Assembly: GCA_019787685.1 (NCBI GenBank)
Contig: JAHNUO010000018.1
Location: 186,001 to 250,000 of the forward strand
Origin: Chiua virens
Taxonomy: Eukaryota > Basidiomycota > Agaricomycetes > Boletales > Boletaceae
DNA length: 64,000 nt
Direction: 5' to 3'
The notes beneath the pieces were generated by a model that made no database searches, had not been told where the DNA came from, and saw only the letters and a program-made list of their open reading frames with translations. Position 1 is the stretch's first letter. Every line of letters starts with the position of its first letter. Below are positions 12,505 through 61,784 of the stretch, in pieces. Made by a program: the position numbers and the translations under genes.

Positions 12505-12750
12505 ATGTCTTGGGAACTCATTGTAATCGCATTTATCATCTCTTGCACAATCACCACATTCTATTTCGGCTACATCGCATTCTACCTTACTAACAAGGTA
12601 CAAGAATCTCAAAGGCCAATTTACGTCTCCATCAAACGACGAGACTACCCTTTCGCAGTCACCTTCGGTCTTTTCTCACCCTACGAAGAATACGGAACAG
12701 CCACCGCTAACGCTTGGGGAGCACCAGAGCCTGCAACTGATGCTTGGTAA
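12505..12750 (+). CDS. small membrane protein upstream of gag (element B)
   Basis: 81 residues from ATG 12505. Residues about 5-29 form a hydrophobic segment (IVIAFIISCTITTFYFGYIA), a likely single transmembrane helix, followed by a basic patch (SIKRRD). The TAA at 12748-12750 is two bases before the gag ATG (12753), so the two ORFs are tightly packed. An ORF of similar layout remains in remnant C (18449-18631). A membrane microprotein before gag is not a standard Ty3/Gypsy component; its function is unknown. Confidence 0.5.
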   Translation: MSWELIVIAFIISCTITTFYFGYIAFYLTNKVQESQRPIYVSIKRRDYPFAVTFGLFSPYEEYGTATANAWGAPEPATDAW

Positions 12751-12752
12751 AT

Positions 12753-13925
12753 ATGTCAGGATACACCTACGCCACCGCCCTCAAAGATCTCAACAACCAA
12801 TCGTTGAATGATGGAGATCGTCTCACGGCATCGGCTTGGCTAGTCCAAGAACTCACCAATGTAGTCGCCACACTAGAAAACAAAATAAACGCTGGAGCAG
12901 CCGCACCAGCTGCCACCTCATCTAAAGTCGAAATATTCGCAGACCCCAGTCTCTATGACGGAGATCAAACCAAATTCGAAGAATGGTGGGCTAAGATGAA
13001 AGGATGGCTTGATATCAATCAGAGGGCTATTGCCCCTGATTCACACCATGCGGTACTTGCCGTACTCTCACGTCTCAAAGGAGCAAAAAGCTCGCAATTC
13101 ACCGAGACAAGATTAGCTCAAGGTTCTAAACTCACATGGGCACAATTGGTCGTGGACATAGAAGGAATGTTCCGACAAAACAATAAAGTGGACTGGGCTC
13201 GTACCCAATTGGAAAACCTGAAACAGGGTAACATGAGGGTCGAAGACTTCATAGTCCGATGGGAAAATCTGTGGCAACAAGCCCAGATCGATCCCACACA
13301 TGCCATAAGGCTTCTGGAAACAAATACCGCCAGGAGCATAATATTCCAAATCTTCAAAGACGGACAACAGCAAGATCCGAATGATCCGATCTATACAAAC
13401 TCGGCCTACCCCTCCTTCATTTCCGACCGCAATCAAGCAGTCACCAAATACCTTGCTGCAATTCGCACAGCAGGAAACTCCTTCGAGTCAATCAACTATG
13501 TCCGAGGAGAAAGGAATTGGAAAAACAAGGACCCCAATGCAATGGACATAGGGGCCATTACCTACGAAAAAGACAAAGATGGCTGGTTTACTGGCAAAGA
13601 AGTTAGGGCGTTCGGCCAAAAGAAGGCCAACCCCAAAAACAAATGCTTCAACTGCGGGGAACAAGGACACATTCCGAGGGAATGTCCGAAACCCAAAGTG
13701 CAATGTCCGGAATGCAAATTCTATGCCGGCAATCACAAAGCCTCATGTGGTAAAACTCGAAAAGCGAGATCCACATCTCAAAAGGAAACCCCTATGGCTT
13801 CCACCTCTTCAGTCCTGGATAAGGACCCCTTCGCGGCCATCCGAGGAATGACTCCTGAGGAAGTACAGGCTTACTATTACGACAAATACGAAACCGAAAA
13901 GAAGGGAAAAGGCAAAGTGAACTGA
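12753..13925 (+). CDS. gag: Gag polyprotein of element B with tandem zinc knuckles
   Basis: 390 residues; the ATG at 12753 is the first in frame after the upstream ORF ends. The capsid-like region carries the retrotransposon gag signature (FEEWWAKMKGWL, VEDFIVRWENLWQQA). Near residues 290-330 come a CCHC knuckle (CFNCGEQGHIPREC) and a second cysteine/histidine module (CPECKFYAGNHKASC). The C-terminus is lysine-rich and contains the -1 frameshift heptamer. No lesion was seen. It would form the virus-like particle and bind element RNA. Confidence 0.85.
   Translation: MSGYTYATALKDLNNQSLNDGDRLTASAWLVQELTNVVATLENKINAGAAAPAATSSKVEIFADPSLYDGDQTKFEEWWAKMKGWLDINQRAIAPDSHHAVLAVLSRLKGAKSSQFTETRLAQGSKLTWAQLVVDIEGMFRQNNKVDWARTQLENLKQGNMRVEDFIVRWENLWQQAQIDPTHAIRLLETNTARSIIFQIFKDGQQQDPNDPIYTNSAYPSFISDRNQAVTKYLAAIRTAGNSFESINYVRGERNWKNKDPNAMDIGAITYEKDKDGWFTGKEVRAFGQKKANPKNKCFNCGEQGHIPRECPKPKVQCPECKFYAGNHKASCGKTRKARSTSQKETPMASTSSVLDKDPFAAIRGMTPEEVQAYYYDKYETEKKGKGKVN
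13904..13910 (+). promoter_or_regulatory. -1 ribosomal frameshift heptamer of element B
   Basis: GGGAAAA read in the gag frame as G_GGA_AAA fits the canonical X_XXY_YYZ slippery form. The pol frame (-1) is open from 13859, gag stops at 13923-13925, and the heptamer lies inside the 67-nt overlap. No convincing downstream pseudoknot was worked out. Confidence 0.7.
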
Positions 13926-16900
13926 GTAAACTGGGATCTCACATTCGCACTACCCTTCCTAAATATTATGAAAACACTGTTTCTTTAAATTTCGATTTCA
14001 AATACTCCGAAATACCTCCCTGGCAAGAGGATAAACTACCTAAATCACCAAAAACAACAGAAAACGAAAGCGTTGACAGCGTCTCTGCAGAGCGTGGTGG
14101 ACACGATAGTTCCGTGCTTAATTCTGTCCCAAAACAAATACCCGATGGGTCTTTCATTAGATCCACATCGGTAGAAAAAGAAATCATCTTACCAATCTTG
14201 GTATCCCCAGTAAACCAAATTGGTTATGTAGGAGCAAAAGCGCTCTTAGATAGTGGAGCTAATGCGATCTTCATACACGAGGATTACGTCGCTAAGCATA
14301 AACTTCCTACTCACGCACTTCCCCATGCCATACAAGTCTTTAATGTCGATGGAACCAAGAATCAAGCGGGTTCTATTACTCACACCACACAACTATTAAT
14401 CAATTACAAAGGACACAGGGAAATAGTGGATGCAGAAATTACCAACCTTGGAAAGAACGACCTTATCCTCGGATACACATGGTTAAAACACCACAACCCC
14501 CATATTGATTGGTCCACTGGATCGGTTGTAATGCGGAGATGCCCTGAATCATGCCATTCTCAAGAAGAAGACGATTTCTTGGATTCCATAATCGCAGAAG
14601 AACTTAAGTATGCAAACTCTATCGCGGAATCTCGTATTTTTACCGCAAACATGGAAACTCCACCTTCTCCTCCTAAGGAACGCACTCTTGAAGAGATGGT
14701 CCCACAAGAATATATGAAATATGCTAAAGTATTTGGAAAAACAGAATCCGAAAGGATACCATTACGCAAACCATGGGATCACAGCATTGACCTAAAAGAG
14801 TCTTTCGTTCCCAAGAAGGGTCGCTTAATACCCCTCTCTGTCACCGAACAAGAGGAGGTTTCCGCATTCATTGACGACCAATTAAAGAAAGGTTACATCA
14901 GACCCTCTAAGTCCGAACAAACATCTCCAGTCTTCTTTGTCCCAAAGAAAGATGGAAAGAAGCGTATGGTTCAGGATTACCAATACCTAAACGAACATAC
15001 AAGCAAAAACAACTATCCCTTACCGCTTATCTCGCAGCTTATGGACAAACTAAAAGACGCTAAGCTATTCACAAAAATGGATCTCCGATGGGGATACAAT
15101 AATGTACGCATCAAAGAAGGCGACGAATGGAAGGCAGCTTTTGTCTGTCACCGTGGGTCTTTCGAACCCATCGTCATGTACTTTGGATTATGTAACTCCC
15201 CAGCAACGTTTCAAACCATGATGAACGAAATCTTTGCCGATATGAATGGCGTTGTTGTCGTCTACATCGATGACCTTATGATCTTTACAGACACTGATGA
15301 TTATGAAACTCATGACAAAATCGTACTTGAAGTGCTTAAACGCCTCGAAGAGAACAATCTATACGTAAAACCAGAAAAATGCTTCTTCCGCGTAAAAGAA
15401 GTGGACTTCCTCGGAATGATCATGGGAACTGATGGGATTAAAATGGATAATGAAAAGACCAAAGCAGTAGCCGAATGGCCAACTCCCACCTCAGTCAAAC
15501 ACATCCGAAGTTTCCTCGGACTTGCCAACTTCTATCACAGATTCATTAAAGATTATGGAAAAATAGCACGACCTTTACATGACCTTACAAAAAAGGATCA
15601 GAAATTCGAATGGACCTTCGCTTGTGACGAAGCGTTCACTATGCTTAAAAAGGCTTTTACGACAGCCCCTATCTTAGCCTATCCGGATCAGAATGCCAAA
15701 TATCGCTTGGAATGTGATTCATCGGATTTCGCTACAGGAGCAGTTCTATCTCTAGAAAAAGAAGGACTATGGCACCCTGTCGCTTACAATAGCCACTCTA
15801 TGACACCAGAAGAACAGAATTACCCAATAGCTGATAAAGAAATGCTCTCAGTTATCCGCTCACTGAAACTATGGTGCCACTATCTCGAGGGTGCAAAACA
15901 TGAATTTGAAATATGGAATGACCACCAGAACCTTACGTGGTTTATGACATGCCAAGATCTTAACCAAAGACAAGCGAGATGGGCCCAATATCTCTCATGC
16001 TTTAACTTCACTTGGCACCACAAGGCTGGAGTCACTATGGGAAAAGCAGATGCCTTAAGTAGAAGAGAAGATCACATGATTGGAATCGAGGATGATAACA
16101 AAGGAATCCTTCTCATGGATCCATCTAAGATCAGATCAGCCGTCACTCTCTTATACAATGGCAATAAATTCTTATCTGACATACAACATGAAACTATGAA
16201 ATTATCACCTAATGCCATGAAACACCTACTATCTATTGGATACAAAGTCGAGGACGCCTTCCTTAGAAAGGGGGATAGGATCTTCATTCCGGATGCTTTA
16301 CGCACCAAATCTATTACCATGTTTCATGACACACCAGAAGCAGGACATCCTGGTTACGACAAAACTTTAGAACTTCTCTCACGAACCTATATATGGCCTC
16401 GTATGAACGAAGAAGTCAAAAATTATGTCTCACACTGTGAAAGATGTGCTTGATTCAAGGGTTCTAATCAAAAAACAGCAGGACTCCTACAACCCTTAGA
16501 AACACCGTCATTACCATGGGAAGATATCTCAGCAGATTTCATTACGGATCTCCCACTTTCACACTCCTATGATTCAATTCTCACGGTTGTGGATCGCTTC
16601 TCCAAAGAAGTTGAATTCATTCCCTGCCACAAAACGTGTACATCTATGGATCTCGCTAAATTATATCTCTCACACATATGGAAACACCATGGCCTCCCTA
16701 AAACCATCATATCGGATAGAGGACCACAATTCGCTTCCCAACTTATGAAAGATATATGCTCAGGGTTAAAAATAACACCCAAACTAAGCACCCCACATCA
16801 TCCACAAACAGATGGACAATCGGAACGAATGAACCGAGAAGTGCAACAATATCTTCGCATGTTCTGTGCCGAGAAGGATAACACATGGGCTGATTGGCTC

Positions 16901-17677
16901 CCCCTCGCACAATTCTCATATAACAGCAAGAAACACACTGCCACTAAATTCTCACCGTTCGAAATCACGCGTTCTTACGTCCCCAGGATGGGAATTATGC
17001 CACAATCCATGAAAAACCCGGCTGCTCAGAACTTTATTACGGATTTCTCCGAAGTTCTAGAACAAACCAAATCTAATATAGATAAAGCCGCGGAAAATAT
17101 GAAAAACATTGCAGATAGATCGAGATCAGAACCTCCCTCCTATTCGGTTGGTGATAAGGTCTGGCTCGCTACAGCAAACCTAAAAATAAAACAACATCCA
17201 AAATTCACGGATAAATGGATTGGCCCCTATGACATAATCTCTATGCATGGACCGAATGCTGTAAAGCTTCGACTCCCACGAACTATGAGAATACACCCAG
17301 TCGTAAATATTTCTCAGGTCAAACCTTACAAGGAACACCTACCCGATCAGCCGGTTTACAAACCATGGCCTATAGTAATCGGAGATGACCGAGAAGAAGA
17401 ATTTGAAGCGGAATATATCATTGATTCCCAAATGAAGGGACGCCGCCTAGAATATCTCATACACTGGAAAGGTTATGATGATGACGAAAGAACTTGGGAA
17501 CCCCTAAAGAATCTAAAGAATGCACCGGATCTTATCTCTGACTTCCATGAAGCACATCCGGATGCCCCAAGAAAACTAAAAGTCACACAAACCAAATTCA
17601 ATTCCATGTTCCGAACTTATGACGATAAAACTATGAACGAAGATGAGGATAGTCTCCATCGTCTCAATTATGAAATA

Positions 17678-17712
17678 GATCATCTGGAATCTGATCAACG
17701 AAAGGGGGATAG
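17678..17712 (+). promoter_or_regulatory. hairpin and polypurine tract of element B
   Basis: GATCA-TCTGGAATC-TGATC (17678-17696) forms a perfect 5-bp stem. Three bases later the 13-nt GAAAGGGGGATAG (17700-17712) ends at the LTR start, as expected for the plus-strand primer. The hairpin lies in pol coding sequence. Compare 19675-19710 and 20128-20163. Confidence 0.6.
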
Positions 17713-18142
17713 TGTTACGATACCAACTTTTCCTCACTTCTCAACTCCAACGTTCAACCAATTCTAATTATAAACGCCTCATGTCAAGGCTGTCCAAAGG
17801 ATCATATCCGATTGGCTGCCACAATAACACAGCATCCATCAACACATGTTCTTATCTATTCATTTCCCTTATCACTGACTCATCACCAGCAGTGCAAGGC
17901 TATGCTCTTATCTATGACTCATATACATTCACACCTTATCATCCAATAGGATACATTATGCTTATCTACGTAGTTCATACTCAGATTAGAACTCTGATAT
18001 CCATGTAGTATATAAACCCCATGAATAACAGCCAGAGAGCTCTAACAAAGTTCTCTTGGAGTTTTTGCCTCTTCACTGGACTGAACCCCCTCTCATCCAA
18101 CCACTACCACTTTAACAGTCTAGGTTGTTCTAGGTTGTTTCA
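17713..18142 (+). repeat. 3' LTR of element B
   Basis: 430 bp, nearly the same as 11267-11698. The first 55 nt also encode the end of pol. Differences from the 5' LTR include several C/T changes and small indels. Confidence 0.85.
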
Positions 18143-21316: not shown

Positions 21317-22042
21317 TGTTACGGTAGTTCCGGGTAGGACCTAACGTAGCCGCAAAAGCGCCAAGTACCAAGTGGCTGCGATAACTCAAACAACCACCAC
21401 TTGGTATGTGGTGCGCTGAAGAGTCGAACAAGGAGTTCTGGTCAGCGGGTGGCTACCAGAGAGACGAGTGAAGACTCAGGCGTTGCTGAGAATTGTCCAG
21501 TTGGGAATCTATACCCGAGGGACGGTCAAGGATCGAGAGTACCCTGTTGAGGGTTCGAGTGTTGGGTCAAGGGCGACGAGAGAAGCCCAAGTCAAGAGGT
21601 CACAGGGAAGGGTCCGAGTGGAGCAGAGATACTCAGCTAGATTGCGGAGATCAAGACTAGAGTACAGGAGTATCGCTGCGAGGTATTTATACTACTGAAC
21701 TGCGCATGGACCAAGTAACTAAAAGGGGAAGGCCAGAAGAGCGGAAGAGCGAAAGGGCCAAAAGGAGTGCGCAGTAATCAAAAGGGGAAATCGTACGATG
21801 CGAAGGCAGCGGACGATGACGAAGATGAAATGACAAATGCGAAGCCATCGGGTGATGACGAGAAAGTGAATGAGTAAGTGCGATGCCATCGGATGATGAC
21901 GAGAAAGAAAAGAGTAAGCATCGGGTAAGGCCGATGGGGTTACATAAGGATGAACGCGTACGGATGAGCGTACGAAGATACCTAAGTATCGAGTGAAGCG
22001 AAGTAGTACAAGTGAAACGAAGAAAAGAAACAAATCGTAACA
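21317..22042 (-). repeat. 3' LTR of element D
   Basis: 726 bp, in element orientation TGTTACG...CCGTAACA. Near-identical to 29055-29780. Confidence 0.85.
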
Positions 22043-22339: not shown

Positions 22340-24224
22340 TCAGCTCCAGGTGGCTCCGGCGGCGACAGGAAGAAGTCGGTCGGCCAGGGGGATGCGAGAG
22401 CGTACCCGAGGAGGTCGTCCAGGGCACCGGGACTGGATATGGCCGGGGGACCAGGTGAGGCAAATGGGGCATTGGTACATGCCACATTCGATGCGGATGT
22501 GTCCGAGTTTTCGGCACTCAAAACAGGCCTCATGGTAACGGGGGTGGTCGTCGGGGAGGGATACCTGACCGGTCCGAAAAAGGTGTTCGGCCTCAGCGCG
22601 GTTGGACGCGATCATCTCGGCCTCCGTGAAGGGTTCCGAGGACGCAGAAGGAGTCGAGGGAGTGGGGGTAGGGGGACGGGCGCGAGCTGCGAGTTCCGCC
22701 TGATAGCGGCGAAGGTCGTTGAGGAATTCCCCCATCTGCATCTGGTGGAGGACGTGTTCTAGGTAAGCGCGGATACGGTCGTGGATTTGACCGGTAACGG
22801 CCGAGAGGAGGCGGTTGTGGCGGTTGCTGCCGAGGAGGTCCGACTGGACGAACGTGAGACGCTCGCATTGGAGGTACACCAAGTAGATAGCGTTCAGCGG
22901 GGAGTTGAGGTCAAGGTGGTGTTCGATGGGGAAGGCCATCGCTGGGTCTAGGATGAGTTCGCGCATGCGGCGAAAGTACTCGGGGGTAGAGGTCGAGGAA
23001 CGAATAGTATGGGAGTGATAGGGGAGATCTACCGACGTGATAGGAGGACGAACAGGGTTAGGAACAGAAGAAGGAACAGGCCATTGAGGAGGCGCTCCCC
23101 ATCCTGTGCTCGCAACTGCTGAAACAGCTGGAGAAGGGGGTCGGGTGGACTCGGTGAGGGAGGATTCGGAGGAGAGGGAGGACCCATTGGTGAGGGGGGT
23201 GGCCGGCGGTGGGAGCGGGCAGTAAGGGATGGATGCGGTGGGAGTGAAGACGGGGACAGAGTGGATGATCTCGTTCTCGAAGTCGGGGGTAGAGCAGGAG
23301 CGGTGGGACATTACTGCTTTGACGGAGACTGGTGGGGGAGGTCTGAGCGGGGAGCGAGGAGGTCGAGGGGGAGGAACTGAGGGGAAATCCTGGGGGTGGC
23401 CACGTTTATATGCGTTGACCGTGTCCTTGGCATTGCCGAGATTGGATTCGGGTTCCCAGGAGTCGTCCGATGCGGAGTACCCTTTCCATTGGATCAGGAA
23501 CTTACGATTCCGCGGGTTCTTGGAGTGTTTCAAGATCCGCTCGATCTCGTACTCTTCTTCTCCAGCAATAAGGTCCGGGGGTGGCTTCGGGAAATTGGCA
23601 CCGTAGGTCTCCGTTTCGCGATAAGGCGATAGGAGGGAAGCGTGGAAGACCGGATGTATTTTCCAGGTCTTTGGAAGGCGGAGGCGGTAGGTGAGCGGAG
23701 AGAGGACTTCCGTGATGGTGAAAGGGCCTTCTCGGCGAGATGCGAGTTTCGGGGAGATGAGTTCCTGTTTCAAATTGCGGGCTTCTAACCAAACCTGATC
23801 TCCTTTGGCGAAGGGTTTGAACTTCTTGAAGGAGCGGGCTTTCATGGCTTGGCGGGCGAGTTCGTGGGCGGCGAGGGCTTCGTCGCGGGCGGCCGCGAGG
23901 GTTTTAAGGCGTTCCTCAACGGCTGGAAGTTTAGTTTCCGCTATGATGGCGGGCAAGGGTCGAGGTTTGTAGCCCATCATCAGGAAGAAGGGGGACTTCC
24001 CAGTGACGGAATGAGGGCGGTGGTTGTGGGCGAACTCTGCCATAGGGAGTAAGTCGGCCCAGGATGAGGGGTTGTTCTGGCAGTACATGCGCAGATATGT
24101 TTCGACTTCTTGGTTAACTCGTTCCGTTTCACCATCAGATTGAGGGTGGTAAGCGGTGGAGAGGGAGAGTTTGTAGCCAATTAGTCGGGCAAGCTCTTTG
24201 GCGAAGGCGGAGGCGAATTGTGGT
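22340..24224 (-). pseudogene. pol: Pol of element D: integrase core end, chromodomain, C-terminal zinc knuckles
   Basis: Continues the integrase core in the shifted frame (FASAFAKELARLIGYKLS, then DGETERVNQEVE), a GPY-type module (SRREGPFTITEVLSPLTYRL) and a chromodomain (RKFLIQWKGYSASDDSWEP, near 23500). Unusually, about 350 more residues follow. They comprise a serine/proline linker, a helical region (YLVYLQCERLTFVQSDLLGS) and, near 22500, a tandem metal-binding module: CFECRKLGHIRIEC (CCHC) then CPICLTWSPGHIQSRC. The same CCHC plus CPxC pair ends Gag in element B. It may be a fused extra nucleic-acid-binding domain. Stop at 22340. Confidence 0.75.
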
Positions 24225-27200
24225 CCCGATCGGAGATAATCTTGTCATAGAGGCCGAAGCGCGTGTATACCTTGTGGAAAAAAAGGCATGCTATACCCGC
24301 GGAGTCGGCGGTTTTCACGGTGGGGCAAAGAATTACCCCCTTCGTAAGGCCGTGGTCGACCACGACCATAAGAGAGTCGTAGCCCTCCGCCGAGGTGGGC
24401 AAATCCGTGATAAGGTCAACGGAGATGTTCTGGAATGGGCGAGAACACGCGGAGGGGATCGGGGAGAGGGGGGGGGTGGTCGGGTGGGTGTTGACCTTCT
24501 GTTGCTGGCAGGAGGCGCAACCGGAGACGTAGGAACGGACGAAGGAAGCTAGGCCCGGCCACCAGAATTCGGCGGCAACAAGCTGGCGAGTTTTCAGGAA
24601 GCCGGGGTGACCGGCACAGTGGGAGTCGTGGTGTCGTGCGACGACTTGCTGTCGCAGGTTGAGGTCGGGGGGTACGTAGACACGGCCCTGATAGGTCAGG
24701 ACGCCGGCGTCGTACCTCCAGTCAGAGAGGCGGGCACGGAAGGAAGAAGGGAGACCGCCGTCCATGGCGTTCAAGGTGTCAAGGACAAGAGGGTCCTCCG
24801 CCGATGATTTGGCGATGAGGGACTCAAGGTCGAGGGTGACGAGGTTGACGAAAACGTCGTCCGGAAGGAGAGTGACGTCTTCATTGTCGGTTTCGAGGGA
24901 GATGTGGTCGGGACGGCGGGAGAGCGCGTCGGGACCGTCGAGGAGCTTGCCAGGGACGTGGGAAAACTTCAGGTCGAAGTCGGCAAGGTCAAGGAGCCAC
25001 CGGGCTTGGCGGCGATTCAGGTTCTGGGGTTGACGGAAGTACGTCAGATTCTTGTGGTCAGAGAAGACCGTGACAGGGTGTGCGCTACCACGAAGGTGGT
25101 GTCGCCAGGCTTTAAGGGATCTGATGACTGCAAGGAGTTCTCGGTCGTAGATGTTGTAGTTTCTCTCCGCCGCATTGAAAGACTGGGAGAGGTAGGAGCA
25201 AGGTTTCCAGTCACCGTTGACATCGGTCTGGAGGAGGACACCGCCAGTGGCGTGCTTGGACGCGTCCGTGGCGATGGCAAAGGGTCGAGAGTAGTCGGGG
25301 AACCGCAAAACGGGATCCGTGGTGAAGGCCTTTTTGAGGCGTTCGAAGGCGGCGGCTTGGGAAGAACCCCAGGTCCAAGGGGCGTCTTTCTTTGTCAGAT
25401 CGACGAGAGGGCGGGCGAAGGTCGAGTAGTCGGGGATGAACCGACGGTAAAAATTGGCGAAGCCCATGAACGAGCGCACGTCCTTGAGCTTGGTGGGAGT
25501 AGGCCAGTCTGCAATACCGGCTACCTTGATGGGATCCATGGCCAGTTCGCCGGGGCGAGCGATCATACCGAGATATTTGACCTCCGTGGTGGCGAAGTGG
25601 CATTTCTCGAGCTTGAGGTGAAGGTCAAGTTCCTTCATGCGGGCGAGAACACGCCTGGTGCGTTCGGTGTGTTCTGCCTCATTCTCCGAGAAGATTAGGA
25701 GGTCGTCCATGTAAATAACGAGCCATCCTTCGGCGATCATATCGCGGAAGGAGTCGTTCATGAATCGCTGAAAGGTGGCGGGGGAGTTGGTTAAGCCAAA
25801 GAACATTACCGTGGGTTCGAAGAGGCCGTGATGAGTGATGAAGGCGGCTTTCCATTGGTGTCCGTCTTTGATTCGGACATTGTTGTATCCCCATCGGACG
25901 TCGAACTTGGTGAAGAGCTTGGCGTCTTTGAGTTTGTCGACGAGGTCGGAGATCAGGGGTAGGGGATAAGCGTCACGGACGGTGTGTTCGTTCACGTAAC
26001 GGTAATCCTGGCATGGTCGTAGTTTGCCGTCCTTCTTTTTGACGAAGAAGAACGGGGAGGCCTGTGGTGAGTTAGATGGTCTAATCTTACCGTTGGCAAG
26101 GTGTTCGTCGATGAATTCGTCGGTGGCCTTCCGTTCATCGGGGGACAAGGGGTAGACTTTCCCGACCTTTGGTTGGAACGAATCCTTGAGGTGGATCTCG
26201 TGATCGCAGGTCCGGGATGGAGGCATCTGGTTGAAGGGTTCCTTCGCGAATACCGATTCGAATTCGGAGTATTCCGGAGGGAGGGTGATCTTGGGTTTCT
26301 TTGCTGCTGCTGCGAGGGCGGTAGCATTGGTGAGCTTCTCGGGTTGAGTGGTCCGAACGAAGCGTCGACCCGCGCGCATGACGCGGTTGACAGAGTGTTG
26401 CACGGATTGGGTCGTAAAACGATGCCCAGTCTCGGTGCCGAGGTAGTCGTAGAGTTTGCCGTCCCAGATAGGGTCGACATCGAGGTGGCGAACGGGATGG
26501 ATCGGAGGGGGATGGGCGAGTTTGGCGGAGTGTCGTGGTTCATCGGTGGTGATAGGAGGGAGGTCGACTTCAGGAGCGGTAACGGAGATGGTTTTGGCAA
26601 CCCAGTCGATTACGGGGTTGGTTGCCTTTAACCAGGGAAGGCCTAGGATGACGTTCTCGGTTCCACAGTGGATAACGTGGAACTTAACGCGCTGGAGTAC
26701 CCCGCCAAGGGCGATGTTACAATTTCTTTCTTTCGTCGTTCTTGTACTTCTTCACTACACTCGATACCTAGGTATCTTCGTACGTTCATCCGTACGCTTA
26801 TCTTTCACTCGTATCTCCGCACCGGCTTTACCCGGATGCTTACGTTCTCCTTTTCTCATCATCATCCGATGGCATCGCGTTTACTCATTCGATTCTCGTC
26901 ATCATCCGATGGCTTCGCATTTGTCATTTCATCTTCGTCATCGTCCGCTGCCGTCGCATCGTACGATTTCCTCTTTTAATTACTGCGCACCCTTTTTGGC
27001 CTTTTGACCCTTCCGCTCTTCCGGCCTACCTCTTTTAGTTACTTGGTCCGTGCGCAGTTTCGTAGTATAAATACCTCGTAGCGATACTCCTGTACTCCAG
27101 TCTTGATCTCCGCAATACTAGCTGAGTATCACTGCTCCACTCGCCACAGCGCTTGTGACCACTCGACTGGACTACTCTTGGTCCTTTTAACTCTTCGGAC

Positions 27201-29054: not shown

Positions 29055-29780
29055 TGTTATGGTAGTTCCGGGTAGGACCTAACGTAGCCGCAAAAGCGCC
29101 AAGTACCAAGTGGCTGCGATAACTCAAACAACCACCACTTGGTATGTGGTGCGCTGAAGAGTCGAACAAGGAGTTCTGGTCAGCGGGTGGCTACCAGAGA
29201 GACGAGTGAAGACTCAGGCGTTGCTGAGAATTGTCCGGTTGGGAATCTATACCCGAGGGACGGTCAAGGATCGAGAGTACCCTGTTGAGGGTTCGAGTGT
29301 TGGGTCAAGGGCGACGAGAGAAGCCCAAGTCAAGAGGTCACAGGGAAGGGTCCGAGTGGAGCAGAGATACTCAGCTAGATTGCGGAGATCAAGACTAGAG
29401 TACAGGAGTATCGCTGCAAGGTATTTATACTACTGAACTGCGCACGGACCAAGTAACTAAAAGGGGAAGGCCAGAAGAGCGGAAGAGCGAAAGGGCCAAA
29501 AGGAGTGCGCAGTAATCAAAAGGGGAAATCGTACGATGCGAAGGCAGCGGACGATGACGAAGATGAAATGACAAATGCGAAGCCATCGGGTGATGACGAG
29601 AAAGTGAATGAGTAAGTGCGATGCCATCGGATGATGACGAGAAAGAAAAGAGTAAGCATCGGGTAAGGCCGATGGGGTTACGTAAGGATGAACGCGTACG
29701 GATGAGCGTACGAAGATACCTAAGTATCGAGTGAAGCGAAGTAGTACAAGTGAAACGAAGAAAAGAAACAAATCGTAACA
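29055..29780 (-). repeat. 5' LTR of element D
   Basis: 726 bp. On the minus strand GTATAAATAC (29430-29421) lies about 30 nt before CTCTAGTCTTGATCT, the predicted RNA start. Positions 29386-29396 are complementary to the PBS at 29042-29052. Confidence 0.85.
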
Positions 29781-52506: not shown

Positions 52507-54811
52507 ATGGATATTTTCTCCACTAAAGTCCCCGAATCCGTTCAGATGATCCTGTCCCGCATCCCACATCTTTCTCCGTTCAATGCTGTCGTGGCGTGTA
52601 CAGCGGTTTTTGCACTCCTCAAGCTGATCCGCGTGTCACGCAAACGGCTTCGTACCCACAGACTCAATGGCCCATCAAGCCCGAGTTTTGTATATGGGGC
52701 CGGGAAAGTAGTGATGGAGGCGGATGACCCCGGGAACGTGTACGAAGTATGGGCGAAGGAGTACGGTGCCGTCTTCGAAATGCCCTCAACTTTGGGGAGT
52801 CGTCGGATTGTGGTGTATGACCTCAAGGCTCTCACGCACTTTCACTCCAAGGATTCGTGGACCTATGTTCGGACGCCTCTAGCAAAGAAATCCATCGAAC
52901 GTGGGGTAAGTTACGGCCGTGAGGCTTGGCTTGTAATTGAAGTCCGTGCCTGATGTCAATGTGCCATTAATAGTTCGGACGAGGTTTGTTTTGGGCTGAA
53001 GGAGAAAGTCACAAAAGGCATGTTTCTAGATCTAGTCGAAGCAACGAAACAAATTGATCAGTTCCTTTCAGGCAACGCAAATCCTTGACGCCCGCCTTCA
53101 GCATTGCTGCCCTTCGCAATCTGATGCCTGTATTCTACGACTCTGCATACAAGGTATCGCCGGATCTCTGAACTTTCGCATCCACTTTGTTTACAAAATG
53201 TTTCCCATTTTAGGCCAGAGGAGCCTGGAATGCTCTCATTGAGTCGAGTGGTCAAGATGGTACTATCATTGAGGTACAGAATTGGTGAGTTTCAGAGGTA
53301 TAGCCGCTGTGGATGACAGTCTGACCGAAATATCGCCCATTCGAAGGATGAATCACATCTCGTAAGATGTCTTCCTCTTTCTTGTTTGTTCTGACTTACA
53401 AATGCATTTGCGCCAGCCTCGACACCATGGGTCTCGCCGGTTTCTCACATAACTTTGGTGCACTCGAGGGGAAAGAGTCCCCAGTGGGTTCAATTTTCGA
53501 CTCACTCACCTCATCAAGTCGCTCTTCCACGTTAAACGTCGGCTTGACCCTCTTGGCCCAAATGTTCCCCGTTCTTCTGCATATACCCACTTCGCGTTCG
53601 AAATCGATCGACAAGTTGAACGATGCAATGGAGGATATATCGAATGTTTTGTTAGCTCGAACGAAGAAAGAGTTAGAAATAGGTGGAGTTGGTGAGCATG
53701 CAGAAAAGTCGATTATCGGGCTCTTGAGTACGTCTGTTTTAACAAATCGTTTGGGACTTTGACGTGACTTACCCGACACAGTCAAAGGGGAGAGTGTCGA
53801 GTCAGAGTTCCATTTGTCGAAGGAAGAAGTGCTCGCGCAGGTGACGTGATTCCACATCCTACATCAATGCCCAACTTATCATGCTCGGTAATAGATGAAG
53901 GTTCTGATTCTCGCAGGATACGAGACCACATCCAGTGAGTTCCATTCCTACAGCTGGAGAAGTAATGTGTCTCATTCTATGTTAGTTAGCTTGACGGTAA
54001 TCTTGTCCCCACCATCATGATGTCTGCCATTGCTAATTCCGACTTTTAGTGGGCCCTCATTGAGCTCTCCCGGAACCCCGACATCCAGACTAAGTTGCGA
54101 AATGAACTTCTCGACCATGGTTCAGATCCAACGTACGATCAACTTACCAACAGCCTTCCATGTCTCGATGCCGTTGTCCATGAAGTTTTCCGCCTCCACG
54201 CGCCAGTTCGTGAGATTATACGGACTGTACGCATACCGTTTATCTCTGGTTCATCTTCACTTCTAATCCATTCGCTTCTACCTCGTTAGGCCACCGAAGA
54301 CGACGTACTCCCACTGTCCGAACCAATCCGCACGAAATCCGGCGAGCTAATTGAAAGCCTGCCTATTGCCGCGGGAACGACTCTTGTCGTTCCTATATCG
54401 GCGGTCAACTGTTCGAACGCCATCTGGGGTGAAGATTCCAAGACCTTCAATCCTAACCGTTGGCTCGAAGGCGCCGGTGAAAATGGGATCCCGTCCAAGG
54501 CAAGAGAGGTCCAAGGACACCGACACTTGCTCACGTTCACGGACGGCCCACGGACGTGTCTGGGCAAGAACTTTGCGGTCGCCGAGTTCAAGGTCAGGGT
54601 TTTGATATTTTCCCTTCGATGTATCGGATGCTAATTTTTGGATCGATTGACATAGGCTGTCTTGTCTGTCCTCGTCAAGAATTTCGTCTTTGAAATGCGA
54701 GACGGTCCCGAGACAAAGCTCGAGATGAGTAGAGGAATCCTTCCTAGGCCTCGTGTAGCTGGCGAGGAGGGGTGCAAGATACCTCTCCGCGTGAAGCCGT
54801 ACATGGGGTGA
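52507..54811 (+). CDS. cytochrome P450 monooxygenase (copy 1)
   Basis: Haem-thiolate monooxygenase, probably membrane-anchored in the ER. ATG at 52507; the hydrophobic N-terminal anchor (NAVVACTAVFALLKLI) precedes a proline hinge (NGPSSPSF). The I-helix oxygen motif is AGYETTS (near 53920), ExxR is EVFR in DAVVHEVFRLH (near 54185), and the PERW-like region is FNPNRWLE. The haem loop is FTDGPRTCLGK (near 54540) with its cysteine ligand. About eleven exons; the frame is open throughout after splicing, including TTSISLTWALIEL across two introns. The intron at 53018-53071 has a GC donor (AG|GCATGT), supported because the paralogue at 59464-61784 has a GT intron at the same codon. Stop TGA 54809-54811. 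Family/subfamily not assigned. Confidence 0.9.
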
Positions 54812-56089
54812 AACTTAGAAATGATCAACTTGAATGTGCTCGTCTCAAAGATTGTGTGCAGTATCATTCCACTCCGACTACTCAAACTTACCGGCTCTTG
54901 TTACTTATGCTTTCTTCGCGTCTACCTTACTCAATCTGATAACCGCCAGTGTAGTAATTGTTGTACCTCTGGATGTTTTCTAAACACTCAGGCTAGTCGA
55001 TGCTGTTAGCATCACTCGCACTCACTATTATTAGCAATAAGAAGAAATTTTCTCTCGTTTGTCGGATTGAAATACTTAGTACGTGTGATCACAGACGGTT
55101 GTTACAAATTTAGAATCGGTACACGACTTCCACGTACTATGTATGTACTCTTGACTCGAAAGATCCGGGCCGGTGAGCCGCAGACTGAGCTAAATCGTTC
55201 CGACGGATGACCCAGGAGGTTGCCAGCCGGGTGTCTGACATCATGCCGAGAAATAACACCTCAACGATACCTCAAGCCATGGAAGTGGCAGATATGATAG
55301 CCATCCGAACACTTACTTCCAATTTCAAGCGCTCAAGCTTCATGGCGGGTCCAACAAAGGCGAACAAAGGCAGAGGTCAAATTACCTGAGACCTAAATAA
55401 ACGTAAACGCAGACTCGTTTCTTACGATTAATATTACTAATTACAACTCATTGTCCCTCAGCATCAATATTTCAATCCCTGATCAAATGCAACCACTGAA
55501 GTACTGACCAGTCACCATACTGTTTCCTCTCCGAGAGAGAAGTTTTACCCAGCCGAACTTCTCGCAAATTTTGCTTACTATCATTGCGCCACTTTTGCAA
55601 AATACCCGGGCTTTGCAAAATCGTCTCTAGCTCACACAACAATTCACATTTCAGCTCGAGCTGGTAGATACAGAACAAAATATGTCAGAGTAATGCACTT
55701 TATTTTTTAAAGAAAAATTGAAGCAGTGTTTGTGTCTTCAGTGTCTCATTTATGCTCGTCAATGAAGCATTTTCAAGCACAAGTGCCAGGGCAACACGCA
55801 AATCTCGGGAGAAAAAATTTGAAAAAAATCCTGTAGATACTTTACACTATTATTCACTCATCCACAAATTTCTGAGGTGATTGTGATCCATCATGACAAG
55901 TTTACAGCTCCTTGAAGTTGTTGTGCTCAAAGTGTGACTCATCACACAGTTCGGACGGAGTTAAATTTGGAACAATGGCAAATCTCGGCAGATTCATGGC
56001 AAAAATGAGTATGAGTATGAGCCTATGGACCAGACTAGACATCAGAATATGCATGCCAGCAGACCGGCGGCACACATGGCGCACCCAGA
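54812..56089. other. intergenic region between P450 1 and minisatellites
   Basis: AT-rich, no supported gene; short frames only. Nothing structural beyond A/T runs near 55700-55850 was noticed. Confidence 0.3.
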
Positions 56090-56370
56090 CCTGACTCGAC
56101 GATCCTCGATCAGTAGGGAATCCAAGTCGGGCCCCAGGTCTATTGAAGCTTGAAGGCGAGCATGAACGCCGAGATAAACAGACGGTGACTCGGCGATCCC
56201 CAATCAGTAGGAATCCAAGTCGGGCCCTGTTGAAGCTTTGAGGCTTGACTTGGTCATTTGACATTTGAGGCAAGCATGAACGCCTAGATGAACAGACGGT
56301 GACTCGATGATCCCCAATCAGTAGGAAATCCAAGTCGGGCCCTGTTGAAGCTTTGAAGCTTGGCTTGGAG
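56090..56370. repeat. tandem repeat array 1
   Basis: About three diverged copies of a unit with GACTCG, GATCCCCAATCAGTAGG, AATCCAAGTCGGGCCC, TGTTGAAGCTTTG and AGCATGAACGCC in the same order (near 56094, 56190 and 56290), with variable spacing of roughly 100-120 bp. Confidence 0.7.
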
Positions 56371-56575
56371 GTGTTGCTGTGCTGGGTGGTGGATGTATTA
56401 TGCACTGGGCGCAGTTTGTTCGTTCCCATAGAAAGGTTCCTGACGGCTCGCAGTTGATGGTGAGGTGGCCGATAACGACTCGGCGTGTCGGAGATTGATT
56501 TGGCACTTGTGACATGATGTGACACGTCCGTTCGTATGCAGATGTGGCGCAATGATAGTAAGTGATGCCGTGGAA

Positions 56576-57110
56576 GACTCGATTACATCAGACAGTGCTA
56601 GTAAGCTGCGATGGCTAGACGGGGCCATAATGCCGACTCGGAGTCTTCACGACTGCAAGGTACTCCCTCTCGCGAATGTTGCTCGTGTGATGGCGTGCAG
56701 GACTCAATTGCACCGGACAGCACTAATAAGCTGCGATGGCTAGACGTGGCCTTAATGCCGACTCGGAGTCTTCAAGACTGCAAGGTACTCCCTCTCGCGA
56801 ATTTTACTCGTGTGATGTGCAGGACTCAATTGCATCGGACAGTACTAGTGAGTTGCGATGGCCAGACGTGGCCTTCATGACTCCAGCGGCATCCGAGTCG
56901 GGGCTCGACATTAGTGAACACCCGAGGCTGCTCGGGTGGTGAAACACGAGTCTGTGCCTTGAGATCTTGAGAAGTCGTCTGCAAGGAGTACTACTCCCTC
57001 TCACTGGCACGAATTTTGCTTATGTGATGCCGTGCAGGACTCGATTACATCAGACAGTACTAGTGAGTTGCGATGGCCAGACGTGGCCATTGATTTCATT
57101 CAGTAAGTCC
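56576..57110. repeat. tandem repeat array 2
   Basis: Units of about 122-125 bp start at 56576, 56701 and 56823, with a fourth, interrupted copy at 57038. Shared blocks include CATCGGACAGTACTAG, GCGATGGCCAGACGTGGCC, GACTCGGAGTCTTC and CTGCAAGGTACTCCCTC. Different unit from array 1. Confidence 0.75.
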
Positions 57111-57919
57111 GCGCGCAGTTTCGTCGAGGAGAGCGGACTACGTGTTCTTTCGTAGCAATAGCTTTCTTGTTAGGTTCAGGGTCGGTCGATGTGACCTCTG
57201 TCCCAGGATCCTCCACCTGACTCGGAGCCTCTACACTGTGGGGCCATTTGATTCTTCCGAGGTCATTGCAAGTGTCAGACGAGGTCGGGACTCCTCACCA
57301 TCGCGTAGCGTCGGGTATGCCGTCTGGTTATTGATATTATGATGCGCTGCCTCTCGGCGTTTTCTTGAAGGGACGTTGAACACGGACTGTGGTATATGTG
57401 TTTCACCCACCTCCACCTACAACTTCTTAACGGACTGTTTGGTTGTTTTTCGTGCACAAAGTTCATCAAGTCTGACTCGTCCCCGTACATATCGCACCAT
57501 CAGCCTCCGATCTGGTCAGCGATTGGTGAACTGATTGAATTACGTTCTCTCCCACCATATACTACATGCGTAGAGGATGTCCCAGGTTCGTCAAGAAAGT
57601 ATCTATTCCTTATTTCCGGGTGAGTACTACCGGTGGTTGCACGGCTTGTATATTTGACCGACCGTTTAATACACAAAATGTTCGAGTATCTTAGATCGCG
57701 GCCAGCAGTGTTTTCTCCGACGAGTTGGTGGTTTTCGATTCAAGACATGCATAGCTTCGATGGGATCATAATACCATTCTGATTGCCTGTGACATACCTC
57801 TGGCTTGAACGCTCAATCTGCCACGTCGATGGCTTTGGAAATCCAGAGATAAAAGGGAGTCATCGTGTGCCACAAGTTTTCACCAAGCACTCAAACCACG
57901 TCCATCTTTACGATCAATC
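57111..57919. other. upstream region of the repeat-peptide gene
   Basis: No supported gene. GATAAAAGGG near 57848, about 70 bp before the ATG at 57920, is a possible TATA-like element. Confidence 0.3.
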
Positions 57920-58706
57920 ATGCTCTTCTCTCACACTCTTCTGCACCTCACGGCTATTGTTGCTGTCATCGCTGCTCCTGTACCTTGTCCCCTCTGGAAT
58001 GATGGTCGCTTGAACTAATGAAGACCGTTTTTTAGGTACCCCAAGGTGTCTCAAACGATGGGTCTCTCATCCGACCCAATGTGGGTCGATTCTATCCCGT
58101 GTTGGGCAAGTTTCCACCTCTCAAGATCGATCCCTATGCAACACCCTCCACAACGTTCGATAACGCTTCCGTCGCACGGGGCATGGCCATTCCCGCCCCC
58201 CCTCTGTAAGCACCAGGCACATGATCGGGCCATTAGTTGCTGACTCTCAATACTAGTAGTGACACAAGTGAACCCTCAGAGACTGTAGCAGACGGCGGGT
58301 CTTCGACCGAGGGCGGAGTCGAACCTGCTGACATTCCTGAGAATTCCTCGGGCACCGGCGCACCCGAAGGGCAGCACGTCAAGTCCAAGTCAACCAGCGT
58401 TGTCAATAATTTTGTCCAGCAGACACGGAATGTCAACGCTCAAGAGGAGGCCAATAGGCACCACCAAATTATTCCGTACGTGCCGAATACGATGATTTTG
58501 ATGGATGCTCATGGTGATGTAGGTGCTTAAGCAAACGCCAGGAATACATGACCCACCTTCACGATCTATTGAATATGCCCGGTTTAAACGGTTTGGGCAA
58601 GCGCCAGGAATACATGAACCACCTTCACGATCTATTACATATGCTCGGTTTAAGTGGTTTGAGCAAGCGCGAGGAGTGTAGCGATCCAGAAGCTTCTATT
58701 TCGTAG
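57920..58706 (+). CDS. secreted precursor with Kex2-type Lys-Arg tandem peptide repeats
   Basis: Four exons (57920-57979, 58036-58205, 58257-58475, 58523-58706) with GT/AG introns of 56, 51 and 47 nt give 210 residues. Exon 1 is almost exactly the signal peptide (MLFSHTLLHLTAIVAVIAAP). A pro-region follows: FYPVLGKFPPLKIDPYATPS, then an acidic/serine stretch (SSTEGGVEPADIPENSSGTG) and an asparagine/glutamine-rich part. The last exon holds two 22-residue repeats, each beginning QEYM, containing HLHDLL and GL.GL, and ending Lys-Arg, with a Lys-Arg also before the first; a short tail (EECSDPEASIS) ends the protein. The third intron (GTACGT...ATGTAG) is decisive: it shifts from the unspliced TAA at 58528 into the repeat frame. 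Such layout is typical of fungal Kex2-processed repeat proteins. It lies between two P450 genes. Product identity unknown. Confidence 0.7.
58536..58670 (+). repeat. 66-bp in-frame tandem repeat in the precursor gene
   Basis: Period 66 bp (22 codons): unit starts at 58536, 58602 and a partial third at 58668. The spacing keeps reading frame, and substitutions cluster at few residues (T/N, N/H, P/L, N/S, G/S). Confidence 0.85.
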
Positions 58707-59463
58707 GCCTCATCCGAGTGATATACAGTTGATATGTGACAGCTAATATTTTTTTTGGGCGCAGAAGTTGACTAGACGACGTACTCCAGGGAACATACGA
58801 GACAAGGTGAAACGTGGAGTCCTTAATTAAGCCATCTACAATAGAATGGTTTGGAATATCTGAAGGTAAAATAGAGTTTTTAGATTTCAAATGTTTTAAT
58901 GGCCCGATATGCCTTGCATGAATTTACGAGATTTATTGTTACAATAGTTTTCTTCGCTGGTACATCGATGCTGCCATCTAGCGTGAGAAATAAGTACTTC
59001 AGTTTTAAATTCTTTACTGCTGACAGTGGTCTATTCACGGGAGGAATATGGAGATCTCGCCATATTCTTCACGTGTCCGAGTCACTTGGATGGCTCATGT
59101 CAATGGATGGCATTGTGAAAGATTGAAAGAGCACCAATTGCACGAGTGATCTATCTAGGTTGTACCATGACGACGACGACAGGCTGGCCATCTCACGAGG
59201 GTGTGGGTCAAGCTTCTACCCACCGTCGTGATGAGTACTGTGTTGCAAAGTCAATGCAAAGTCGAACAACTGCATAGCATATCACATGGGTAGTACTGGT
59301 AACTTCTGGTGATTATGCGATCAGGATCTGATGCTTTCGTGCGGCTCGCATTACCCTATATCCGAATATTCTAACCATGCATACCCCCATTTTCCAAGTG
59401 CACGCGTGCACAGTCAACAGATTCCTATAAGATAAAGACGACATGACGAGAGTCATCTGCTTC
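58707..59463. other. intergenic region between precursor gene and P450 2
   Basis: About 750 bp with no supported gene; probably the 3' ends of two convergent transcripts. Confidence 0.4.
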
Positions 59464-61784
59464 TCATTCGTTGAAACGCCGAACACACATGGGCACACTA
59501 GCACCCTCCTCGCCGGTTACCTTCGGCCTCGTTAATATACCTCTCTCCATCCCGATCTCCACCTCGGGTCCATCTCGAAGTTCCAACACAAAGTTTCTTA
59601 TGAGAACCGAAAGCACGATCTGTCACAAGCACAGGTCAACATTTACTTAGCGCTCAAAACCGGCGACGAGGCGCCGATGCCAAACGTCTATTGACCAAGA
59701 ACGATCGCGCACCTTGAACTCGGCGATTGCGAATCCTTTTCCGAGACATGTCCTGGGACCATCAATGAACGTCAACAAATGACGGTATCCCTGGATCTCT
59801 TTCGCCCGGGCTGGGATACCATCTTCCTCAAGCCACCTTTCGGGCCTGAACACCTTGGCGTCTGGACCCCAGAACGCCGTCGAGCGGTTCATGAATGGTA
59901 CTGATACAGACACCGTGGACCCCTTTGCGACCGAGATATGGTCGACTGATTTGCCGGATCGAGTTCGGACCGGTCTGCTCAACGGAATCATATCGTCCGC
60001 TGCAGCCTAATGCCAGAGGTTAGATCGTAGCAAACCATCGGTCGCGCGTACATACTACGCGGCTAAAATCAGGGAGAGGAGGATGCATACGAAGCGTTTC
60101 GTGAACTACAGCATCGAGGTACGGGAGGCTATTGAGAAGTTGATCATAAGTTGGGTCGACCCCAAACTCGAAAAGCTCTGTTCGTAGCTTGGTTTGGATA
60201 CCCGGATTCTTGCAAAGTTCGATAAATGCCCACTGGGCGAGAAAGGAGGATAGCACATGATTAACAAGGGACCATCAAGTCAAAGTGAAGTCTCGCACCG
60301 TTAAACTGACTATCGCGGTAAAGACACGTCAAGTCTGATACCACTCAGGAAAGTGATAGACTTACTCGATGTGGTCTCATATCCAGCAAGCAGTAGGACT
60401 TTAGCCTAGGTATAACTAGTCATTTGAATACCGATGGAAGTCAAACTTCAATACATACCAAACCCGTCACCTCCTCATGTGTCAAACGGAGCTGACCCTC
60501 ATGGCTTTCAGCCTTGACTACTCCCAGAGTTATGTAACCAAATTTATCATTTTAACATCAGGGAAGCATATGGACGCACTGAGAAGACCAAGGATAGACT
60601 GTTCTTCTCTTTCCCCCAGGGTACCAGCCTCCTTTTCTTTCCTTGACTTTGACAGCAATTCATCAGTGATTTGTCCCATCGTGTCATTCAGCCTCCGAAA
60701 GAGCTTTGCATTGCTGGTCGGTACTTTCATCAACCATGGAAGTACGCTGGAGAAGAGAAGCAGTAATAAATTGACGGTATTTCCCTCACCGCCACTGAAC
60801 ATGTCGAATACTTCCGTTACTGAGGCCCTTTTACCATCCAATGAGCCAAATTCATGAGAAAAACCGGCCAAACCGATCGTGTCGAGACTATCGGACTCGG
60901 TCAAACACTGTCATAATGCAAGCGAATGGGCCTCCGTACGAAACATGGTTCATCCTAGGGTGTAAATATATTAAGCATGTGAAATAATCTTCAATGTGAA
61001 GATCAATCACACACCAATTCTGAACTTCGATTATTGCACTATCACCACCATTGGATTCGATCAGCGAATCCCAGATGCCTTTAACCTAACTTCCTTCTTC
61101 AGGAACGGAAACATTCGATACCAAAAGATGGAACACGGACCTTGTAAGCCGAGTCATAGAATACCGAAGTCAGACTACGAATTGCAGCGTTACTGAAAGC
61201 CGGTGTCAGAGCCTTCCGTAGTCTGTACCAAGGATCGTCAAAACAGGTACTCCGTGCGAACAAAACAAAAAGAAATGCCGACCTACGATGAGACTCTCCC
61301 CGTGAGGTCAAGATCCCCTTGCCTACCTGCACAGACCCGATCAGAGCGCTCCACGGACTCATCGGGAATTTCCACTTACCAAACTCTCCGTAGAAATGTG
61401 CCCGAGAGGCGTCAATAAGTACGTCCAGGGCTCCAATCCAAACATATGTGCGACTGCTTTTGGGTCGCAGAGCATGATCCTTTTCCCTCCAAATGCGGTA
61501 GCAATCTCAAATGCCCCACCGTACTCTTCTGCCCACTTCTCGACTATGGCTCCCGTGTCAGGGGATGCGAGAAGCACTGTACCCATACCCCACAAGGATG
61601 GACTGGGCGGCCCACGAAGCGCAGTCGTCTTCATTCGTCGGCGAGTGACCTGGATGACTTTGATAATGGCATAAAGGGCCCCAATCGCACACACAATGTC
61701 GACGACTCGTGGACGATGCGATGCCCTGACAATATTGTCGAGAAGCAATACTTGCAGAGATTCCAGAGAAATTAGGCTGGTCAT
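59464..61784 (-). CDS. cytochrome P450 monooxygenase (copy 2, paralogue of copy 1)
   Basis: ATG at 61784 (MTSLISLESLQVLLLD), a hydrophobic anchor (VDIVCAIGALYAIIKVI) and hinge (LRGPPSPSLWG). The I-helix motif is AGYETTS (near 60395), ExxR is ETLR in DAVVHETLRMH (near 60100), FRPERWLEEDG lies near 59830, and the haem loop is FIDGPRTCLGKGF (near 59750). Exon order and intron positions match copy 1: ESHRRLRKALTPAFS spans the intron at the site where copy 1 has its GC donor. The last exon reads VLSVLIRNFVLELRDG and ends TGA 59466-59464. No lesion seen. The two genes are convergent, about 4.7 kb apart, with the repeat-peptide gene between them; they share LDT.GLAGFSH, HLLTF.DGPRTCLGK and the C-terminal GEEG motif. 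Subfamily not assigned. Confidence 0.88.

Follow-up and report, generated by a model that had tools for sequence, protein, structure and literature searches.

The window analysed here is a 64,000-nucleotide stretch of the Chiua virens genome (contig C18, positions 186001–250000), and on its plus strand, at 57920–58706, lies an unannotated gene for a secreted-peptide precursor, from which two small peptides are probably released. The gene stands between two cytochrome P450 genes, and its relatives were sought in the whole 48.3-Mb C. virens assembly of 136 contigs.

The precursor gene

Four exons, separated by GT-AG introns of 56, 51, and 47 nt, join in a single reading frame of 210 amino acids (aa). 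Exon 1 (57920–57979) encodes in this in-frame model a hydrophobic N terminus, recognised by eye and presumed to be a signal peptide, and exon 2 (58036–58205) a part of the pro-region found in the window copy only. Exon 3 (58257–58475) carries a leader domain common to a paralog on contig C5; its acceptor, the second in the gene, is a TAGTAG tandem. If the downstream site is used, the exon starts at 58260, the product has 209 aa, and the junction agrees with that in the C5 paralog. Exon 4 (58523–58706) is the core exon, holding both repeat units, the tail, and the stop codon.

The two units, QEYMTHLHDLLNMPGLNGLGKR and QEYMNHLHDLLHMLGLSGLSKR, are 22 residues long, are delimited by three Lys-Arg (KR) sites, and each end in KR. 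As read from the gene model, unit 1 (58539–58604) consists of the core QEYMTHLHDLLNMPGLNGLG plus KR, and unit 2 (58605–58670) of QEYMNHLHDLLHMLGLSGLS plus KR; both cores begin QE and have a tyrosine at position three. The units are identical at 59 of 66 bases, compared with at most 32 in any of 2000 mononucleotide-shuffled versions of the gene, and their seven differences change six codons, one of them synonymously. The array was also picked up by a tandem-repeat scan of the window. The original prediction, made from the letters of the sequence, had described a four-exon gene with a signal-like N terminus, a pro-region, and KR-bounded 22-residue units, and all of this stands, with the frame and splice sites intact.

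Close paralogs on other contigs

A protein search of the genome with the window core exon found paralogs on contigs C5 (E 3e-11) and C4 (E 1.2e-8). The C5 paralog (C5:1355653–1356901, minus strand; 382 aa) contains eleven QAYM units (22 residues long in nine, 19 in two), along with an additional short first unit and a divergent last unit, and the C4 paralog (C4:791875–792465, plus strand; 164 aa) contains two. The cores of both start QA. A 47-nt intron directly precedes the core exon in all three genes, and two units taken from each are identical at Q1, Y3, M4, L7, H8, L10, L11, G15, L16, and G18. The pro-regions of the window and C5 genes align with a local score of 76 (shuffles 28.8 ± 5.4; 0 of 2000 reach the score), and that of C5 against C4 is likewise reached by 0 of 2000 shuffles; the score of window against C4 is not significant, being reached by 683 of 2000. 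Since both core exon and pro-region are homologous to an eleven-unit paralog, the window precursor is more than a chance frame, and the same homology backs the earlier suggestion of a secreted precursor of the Kex2 type. Window unit 2 gives dN/dS values of 0.23/1.07–1.48 against three of the nine C5 units and 0.26/2.17 against C4, which, at 20–22 codons, are indicative only.

C11 carries a fourth copy, in degraded form. A match on C15 from the window-precursor search (E 0.16, with stops) was dismissed as chance; it overlies a frame on the opposite strand that looks P450-like by eye.

No relative was found in the protein database for the window precursor (no match at E ≤1 among 195 candidates) or for the C5 precursor (none at E ≤1 among the 7993 candidates sharing most words), the candidates being restricted to 0.55–1.75 times the query length, so that a differently modelled annotation could escape. 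The database does cover fungal proteins, since one of the neighbouring P450s (P450 A, below) gave 831 matches. Pfam held no match for the window precursor at E ≤0.01, matched a shortened C5 precursor only below the cut-off, and gave nothing at E ≤1 for a further precursor on C49; among solved structures there were two hits, both weak, with E values of 0.039 and 0.98. The NCBIfam model PorACj (channel-forming peptides) scored 20.3 bits on the C49 core repeats, below its cut-off of 28, probably by chance.

A wider family with a common leader

With the C5 precursor as query, the leader or signal region was matched at two places on C12 and at C4:882, C49, C15, C34, and C4:10 kb, from which gene models were built by means of splice signals and repeat comparison; long frames on C8 (E 4e-4) and C26 (E 3e-3) matched weakly and were left aside. 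The loci C49/C15 and C34/C4:10 kb form pairs that are 97% identical across 2.7–3.2 kb on different contigs, and these pairs may be allelic. Matches to the MFS family also come in near-equal pairs, and, together with the 97%-identical loci, this suggests that both haplotypes may be partly present in the assembly. The cores of C12, C4:882, C49, and C34 are other than QAYM (frames read by eye), and C34 and C4:10 kb have only the signal region and an upstream element in common with the family.

This upstream element, of 26 bases, occurs with 0–5 mismatches in eight of nine regions compared outside the window, 158–185 bases before the start codon; the region upstream of the C11 copy has no match to it (12 mismatches). 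A genome-wide search with 24 of its bases and at most three mismatches found 10 places, and the reversed pattern found none. Eight of the places are known family loci. The two new ones are C4:922, where the element stands beside a decayed family gene, and C4:880 (C4:878001–881000), where it comes without a recognisable precursor and the adjoining frame resembles, by eye, permease genes near C4:792. With membership defined by the leader and/or the upstream element, the near-identical pairs merged, and C4:880 left out, the family comprises ten loci: C18, C5, C4:792, C11, C12:231, C12:238, C4:882, C49/C15, C34/C4:10 kb, and C4:922. Sequence comparison places the window gene in this family, whose leader is common and whose cores differ, as a divergent member with few units.

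Some family members appear to be built of exon cassettes. In the C49 gene, a leader exon is followed by six core exons (108, 108, 108, 99, 84, and 96 nt) that are all entered in phase 2 and show a dibasic site among residues 1–4, and the last exon lacks a dibasic start; the repeats of the C12:231 gene are exons that start RK and contain a KR. Where phase 2-2 core exons open with their own dibasic site, duplication or exchange of an exon would add a secreted peptide without a frame shift. In the literature searched, with full-text look-up of 'exon' and 'intron' limited, no description of exon cassettes in Kex2-type precursors was met.

Predicted processing and properties of the peptides

The precursor would be a secretory pre-pro-peptide that enters the endoplasmic reticulum; Kex2 would cleave after the three Lys-Arg sites, Kex1 would strip the C-terminal KR, and the N-terminal Gln would cyclise to pyroglutamate. 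A Kex2-type P-domain has one match in the genome. What reaches the cell surface or the medium would be two weakly acidic, linear peptides, each about 20 residues long. The monoisotopic masses calculated for them are 2252.0718 and 2307.1140 in linear form and 2235.0452 and 2290.0874 with pyroglutamate. That they would be linear pyro-Q peptides is suggested by analogy with Coprinopsis cinerea, in which linear pyro-Q peptides were detected from Kex2-processed proteins (KEPs), and single KEP knockouts had no phenotype (PMC9769878; here, as for the other papers cited by accession, from the portions of the text available).

The hydrophobic moment of both window cores lies above that of shuffled sequences (p 0.025 and 0.004); as a family trait it was rejected, with p <0.05 in five of nine peptides and failure for the C5, C4a, C49a, and C12 cores. 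An AlphaFold2 model built from three sequences places helices at core-exon residues 2–16 and 24–40 with a mean pLDDT of 67, a low-confidence value. Amphipathic helices of this kind would fit surface or membrane activity or binding to a receptor, and, by analogy with other mushroom precursors of this kind, for which such roles have been suggested, the peptides most likely have a surface-active or signalling role in dealings with other organisms.

The flanking P450 genes and their surroundings

P450 A (52507–54811, plus strand; 12 exons, 555 aa) and P450 B (59464–61784, minus strand; 12 exons, 553 aa) are neighbours that probably lie outside the peptide system. The spliced model of A is 100% identical over 555 aa to an NCBI C. 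virens cytochrome P450, with which its one GC-AG intron (53018–53071) is consistent. The genes are convergent and intact, share 54% identity over 528 aligned positions, and match PF00067 over nearly its full length (206.7 and 221.3 bits; cut-off 22.8), bearing out the claim that convergent paralogous P450s lie on both sides of the precursor. Further copies of the A/B family lie on C18 at 156, 299–301, 303–305, and 458–460 kb and on C26, some being fragments in the stretches matched. The 120 listed of the 831 database matches to A include proteins from many Boletales. In a midpoint-rooted tree of 25 proteins (23 chosen from the 120 listed, plus models A and B), A pairs with the 458-kb C18 gene, and the partner of B is P0049, a match to the 303-kb C18 gene; A and B fall in different Boletales clades, and Tylopilus is represented in both.

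Between P450 A and the precursor lies a 125-bp tandem repeat (56562–56879, 2.6 copies), with related stretches at 56976–57090. Elsewhere in the window are two Ty3/gypsy-type retroelement bodies (12741–17764, plus strand; 22343–26751, minus strand) that match reverse transcriptase, RNase H, and chromodomain; a further reverse transcriptase frame occurs on the contig at C18:260170–263526. Two arrays, at 21799–21918 and 29537–29656, have an identical 41-bp consensus and score and are perhaps parts of one repeated element.

Interpretation and alternatives

Taken together, the comparisons make it probable that the window gene encodes a Kex2-processed precursor, a divergent member of a modular family, that it gives rise to linear peptides, and that the P450s are mere neighbours. 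A larger claim, which we regard as possible and hold tentatively, is that of a modular peptide system in which the leader and a family-specific upstream element are combined with exchangeable cores, the window gene being an offshoot with a new 5′ end and perhaps new regulation. The main interpretation already has a family that keeps its leader—mostly along with the upstream element—and multiplies or exchanges dibasic-bounded cores.

Several observations weigh against the main interpretation. The window gene has two full units only, followed by an unrelated tail (EECSDPEASIS), and its own units compare at a dN/dS of only 0.10/0.18 (20–22 codons). It shares leader and core homology with the C5-type family and lacks the family's upstream element: ahead of the gene the best match has 13 mismatches in 26 bases, and the element was not found anywhere in the window. 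Bases 57300–58259, which include the 5′ end of the gene, have no other match in the genome, and another locus as donor of this end was rejected for the same reason; the promoter and signal exon of the window copy appear to have been replaced. A search exon by exon found no match to Glu_cyclase_2 in the genome, so the pyroglutamate step would proceed without such an enzyme; in Pichia, too, in which C. cinerea KEPs were expressed, the change occurred without a Glu_cyclase-type enzyme (PMC9769878). The low confidence of the structure model counts on the same side, as does a P450 within 10 kb of three of the ten family loci, discussed below.

With the upstream element absent and the 5′ end unique, the window copy may be silent or decaying, and the gene could be a relic, that is, a duplicated precursor severed from its promoter. 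The two units, the retroelements around the gene, and the defective look of at least three other family copies (C11, C12:238, and C4:922) would agree with this. We nevertheless consider it unlikely: the frame, the splice sites, and the three KR sites are intact, the core positions match those of the paralogs, and dN/dS lies near 0.2, albeit over few codons.

It was also proposed at the outset that the P450s, or one of them, tailor the released peptides, and the locus could then be a small cluster for a ribosomally synthesised and post-translationally modified peptide (RiPP) in which one or both P450s oxidise the cores, e.g., at Tyr3 or His8. The precursor is tightly packed between two intact P450s, its cores contain Tyr, and stretches flanked by two listed P450s closer than 8 kb to each other account for about 0.09% of the genome. 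Some P450 lies within 10 kb of three of the ten family loci (distances by hand: the window, on both sides; C4:792, about 7.5 kb; C12:231, about 6.8 kb). The background is at least 2.98% of the genome within 10 kb of a listed P450, a lower bound because 92 of 300 P450 candidates were scored; the binomial probability of three in ten is 0.0027 at a background of 3%, 0.019 at 6%, and 0.07 at 10%. MFS_1, tried as a control family for these distances, was uninformative (9 of 220 candidates scored). A genome search with P450 A does not have the P450s near C4:792 and C12:231 among its listed matches, and so these look like different families. Given this and the 92 of 300 candidates scored, proximity is a weak hint.

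Against tailoring, A and B sit in different clades with relatives of their own elsewhere, six 10-kb stretches retrieved from around other A/B-family copies yielded no precursor, and the 20-kb surroundings of the C5 and C4 precursors yielded no A/B-like P450. The P450 family is widespread in Boletales (as its database matches attest), whereas no annotated relative of the precursor was found. The prediction had noted that no DUF3328/UstY-like gene was visible, and this extends to the whole contig: UstYa (PF11807) has at least 18 matches in the genome—itself a lower bound—and none on C18, and the only contig that carries both another complete family precursor and a UstYa is C5, where the two are about 177 kb apart. 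A RiPP cluster is thus improbable, and A and B most likely belong to a separate family with its own copies and do not act on the peptides.

Mating or self-signalling peptides of the alpha-pheromone kind are very improbable. In their favour are the layout, a 20-aa core inside the 9–24 aa class quoted for alpha-type pheromones (PMC6339444), and, compatible with an XA dipeptide for STE13, the QA start of the C5 and C4 cores. Against them, a Trp motif is lacking, the cores of the window gene open with QE rather than with an XA or XP dipeptide, the family cores are many and mutually unlike, and a genome search run without a positive control gave no STE2 match.

What is new here is the family of ten precursor loci with a common leader and/or upstream element and differing cores. 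If the cassette layout is true, it would offer a mushroom a simple genomic route to multiply and diversify secreted peptides, and it would supply a sequence tag by which other boletes could be searched for them. The analysis also corrects a tempting view of the window locus as a P450-modified peptide cluster.

Comparison with known systems

Amanita MSDIN precursors keep their leader and vary their cores among paralogs, and they have a single core and a leader other than that of the Chiua family. To our knowledge they have no secretory Kex2 layout, and the analogy with the C. virens family is one of layout only.

Dikaritins (ustiloxin, phomopsin, and asperipin) resemble the window locus in their Kex2-type precursor, core Tyr, and nearby oxidative enzymes (PMC7329392). 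The window contig, however, has no UstYa/DUF3328 match and its P450s are, on present evidence, not specific partners; although Tyr is present in the cores, the gene is, judged by UstYa, not a dikaritin gene. In Basidiomycota, 103 of 1680 KEPs had a UstYa neighbour (PMC7329392).

Rep1 of Ustilago maydis likewise yields several similar Kex2-cut peptides from one secreted basidiomycete precursor; its peptides are quoted as 37 aa long, against 20 aa for the window cores, and as fibril-forming, and the likeness is one of layout (PMC6339444, PMC7329392, PMC9769878). MiSSP8 of Laccaria bicolor, a repetitive Kex2-type precursor of an ectomycorrhizal basidiomycete, is also likened by layout, from the portions of the literature available.

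Two KEP surveys (Umemura 2020, Le Marquer 2019) counted proteins with three or more repeats between Kex2 sites, the repeats being 8 aa or longer and bounded by KR, KK, RK, or RR. A signal peptide, likewise part of the KEP definition, is suggested for the window gene by the hydrophobic N terminus recognised by eye, and release and secretion of the peptides, a further part, are predicted. The window gene, with 20-residue cores between KR sites, agrees in repeat length and dibasic boundaries and falls short in repeat number, which the C5 paralog, with its eleven units, attains. It is therefore formally not a KEP, and its predicted processing is that of one despite the two repeats. As three repeats were demanded and the larger survey worked on annotated proteins, low-copy, many-exon precursors can escape such surveys.

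The closest likeness is to the KEPs of Agaricomycetes such as C. cinerea KEP 497993 (PMC9769878). Its peptide QIPAELPTKSINGNIEPYKV has no likeness, by eye, to the QEYM cores of the window gene, which has two units only, and a leader family with exon cassettes was not met for C. cinerea KEPs in the portions of that paper available. Like the C. cinerea KEPs, for which no modifying genes are known there to be needed, the window gene combines a signal-like N terminus with dibasic-bounded cores of about 20 aa that begin with Gln.

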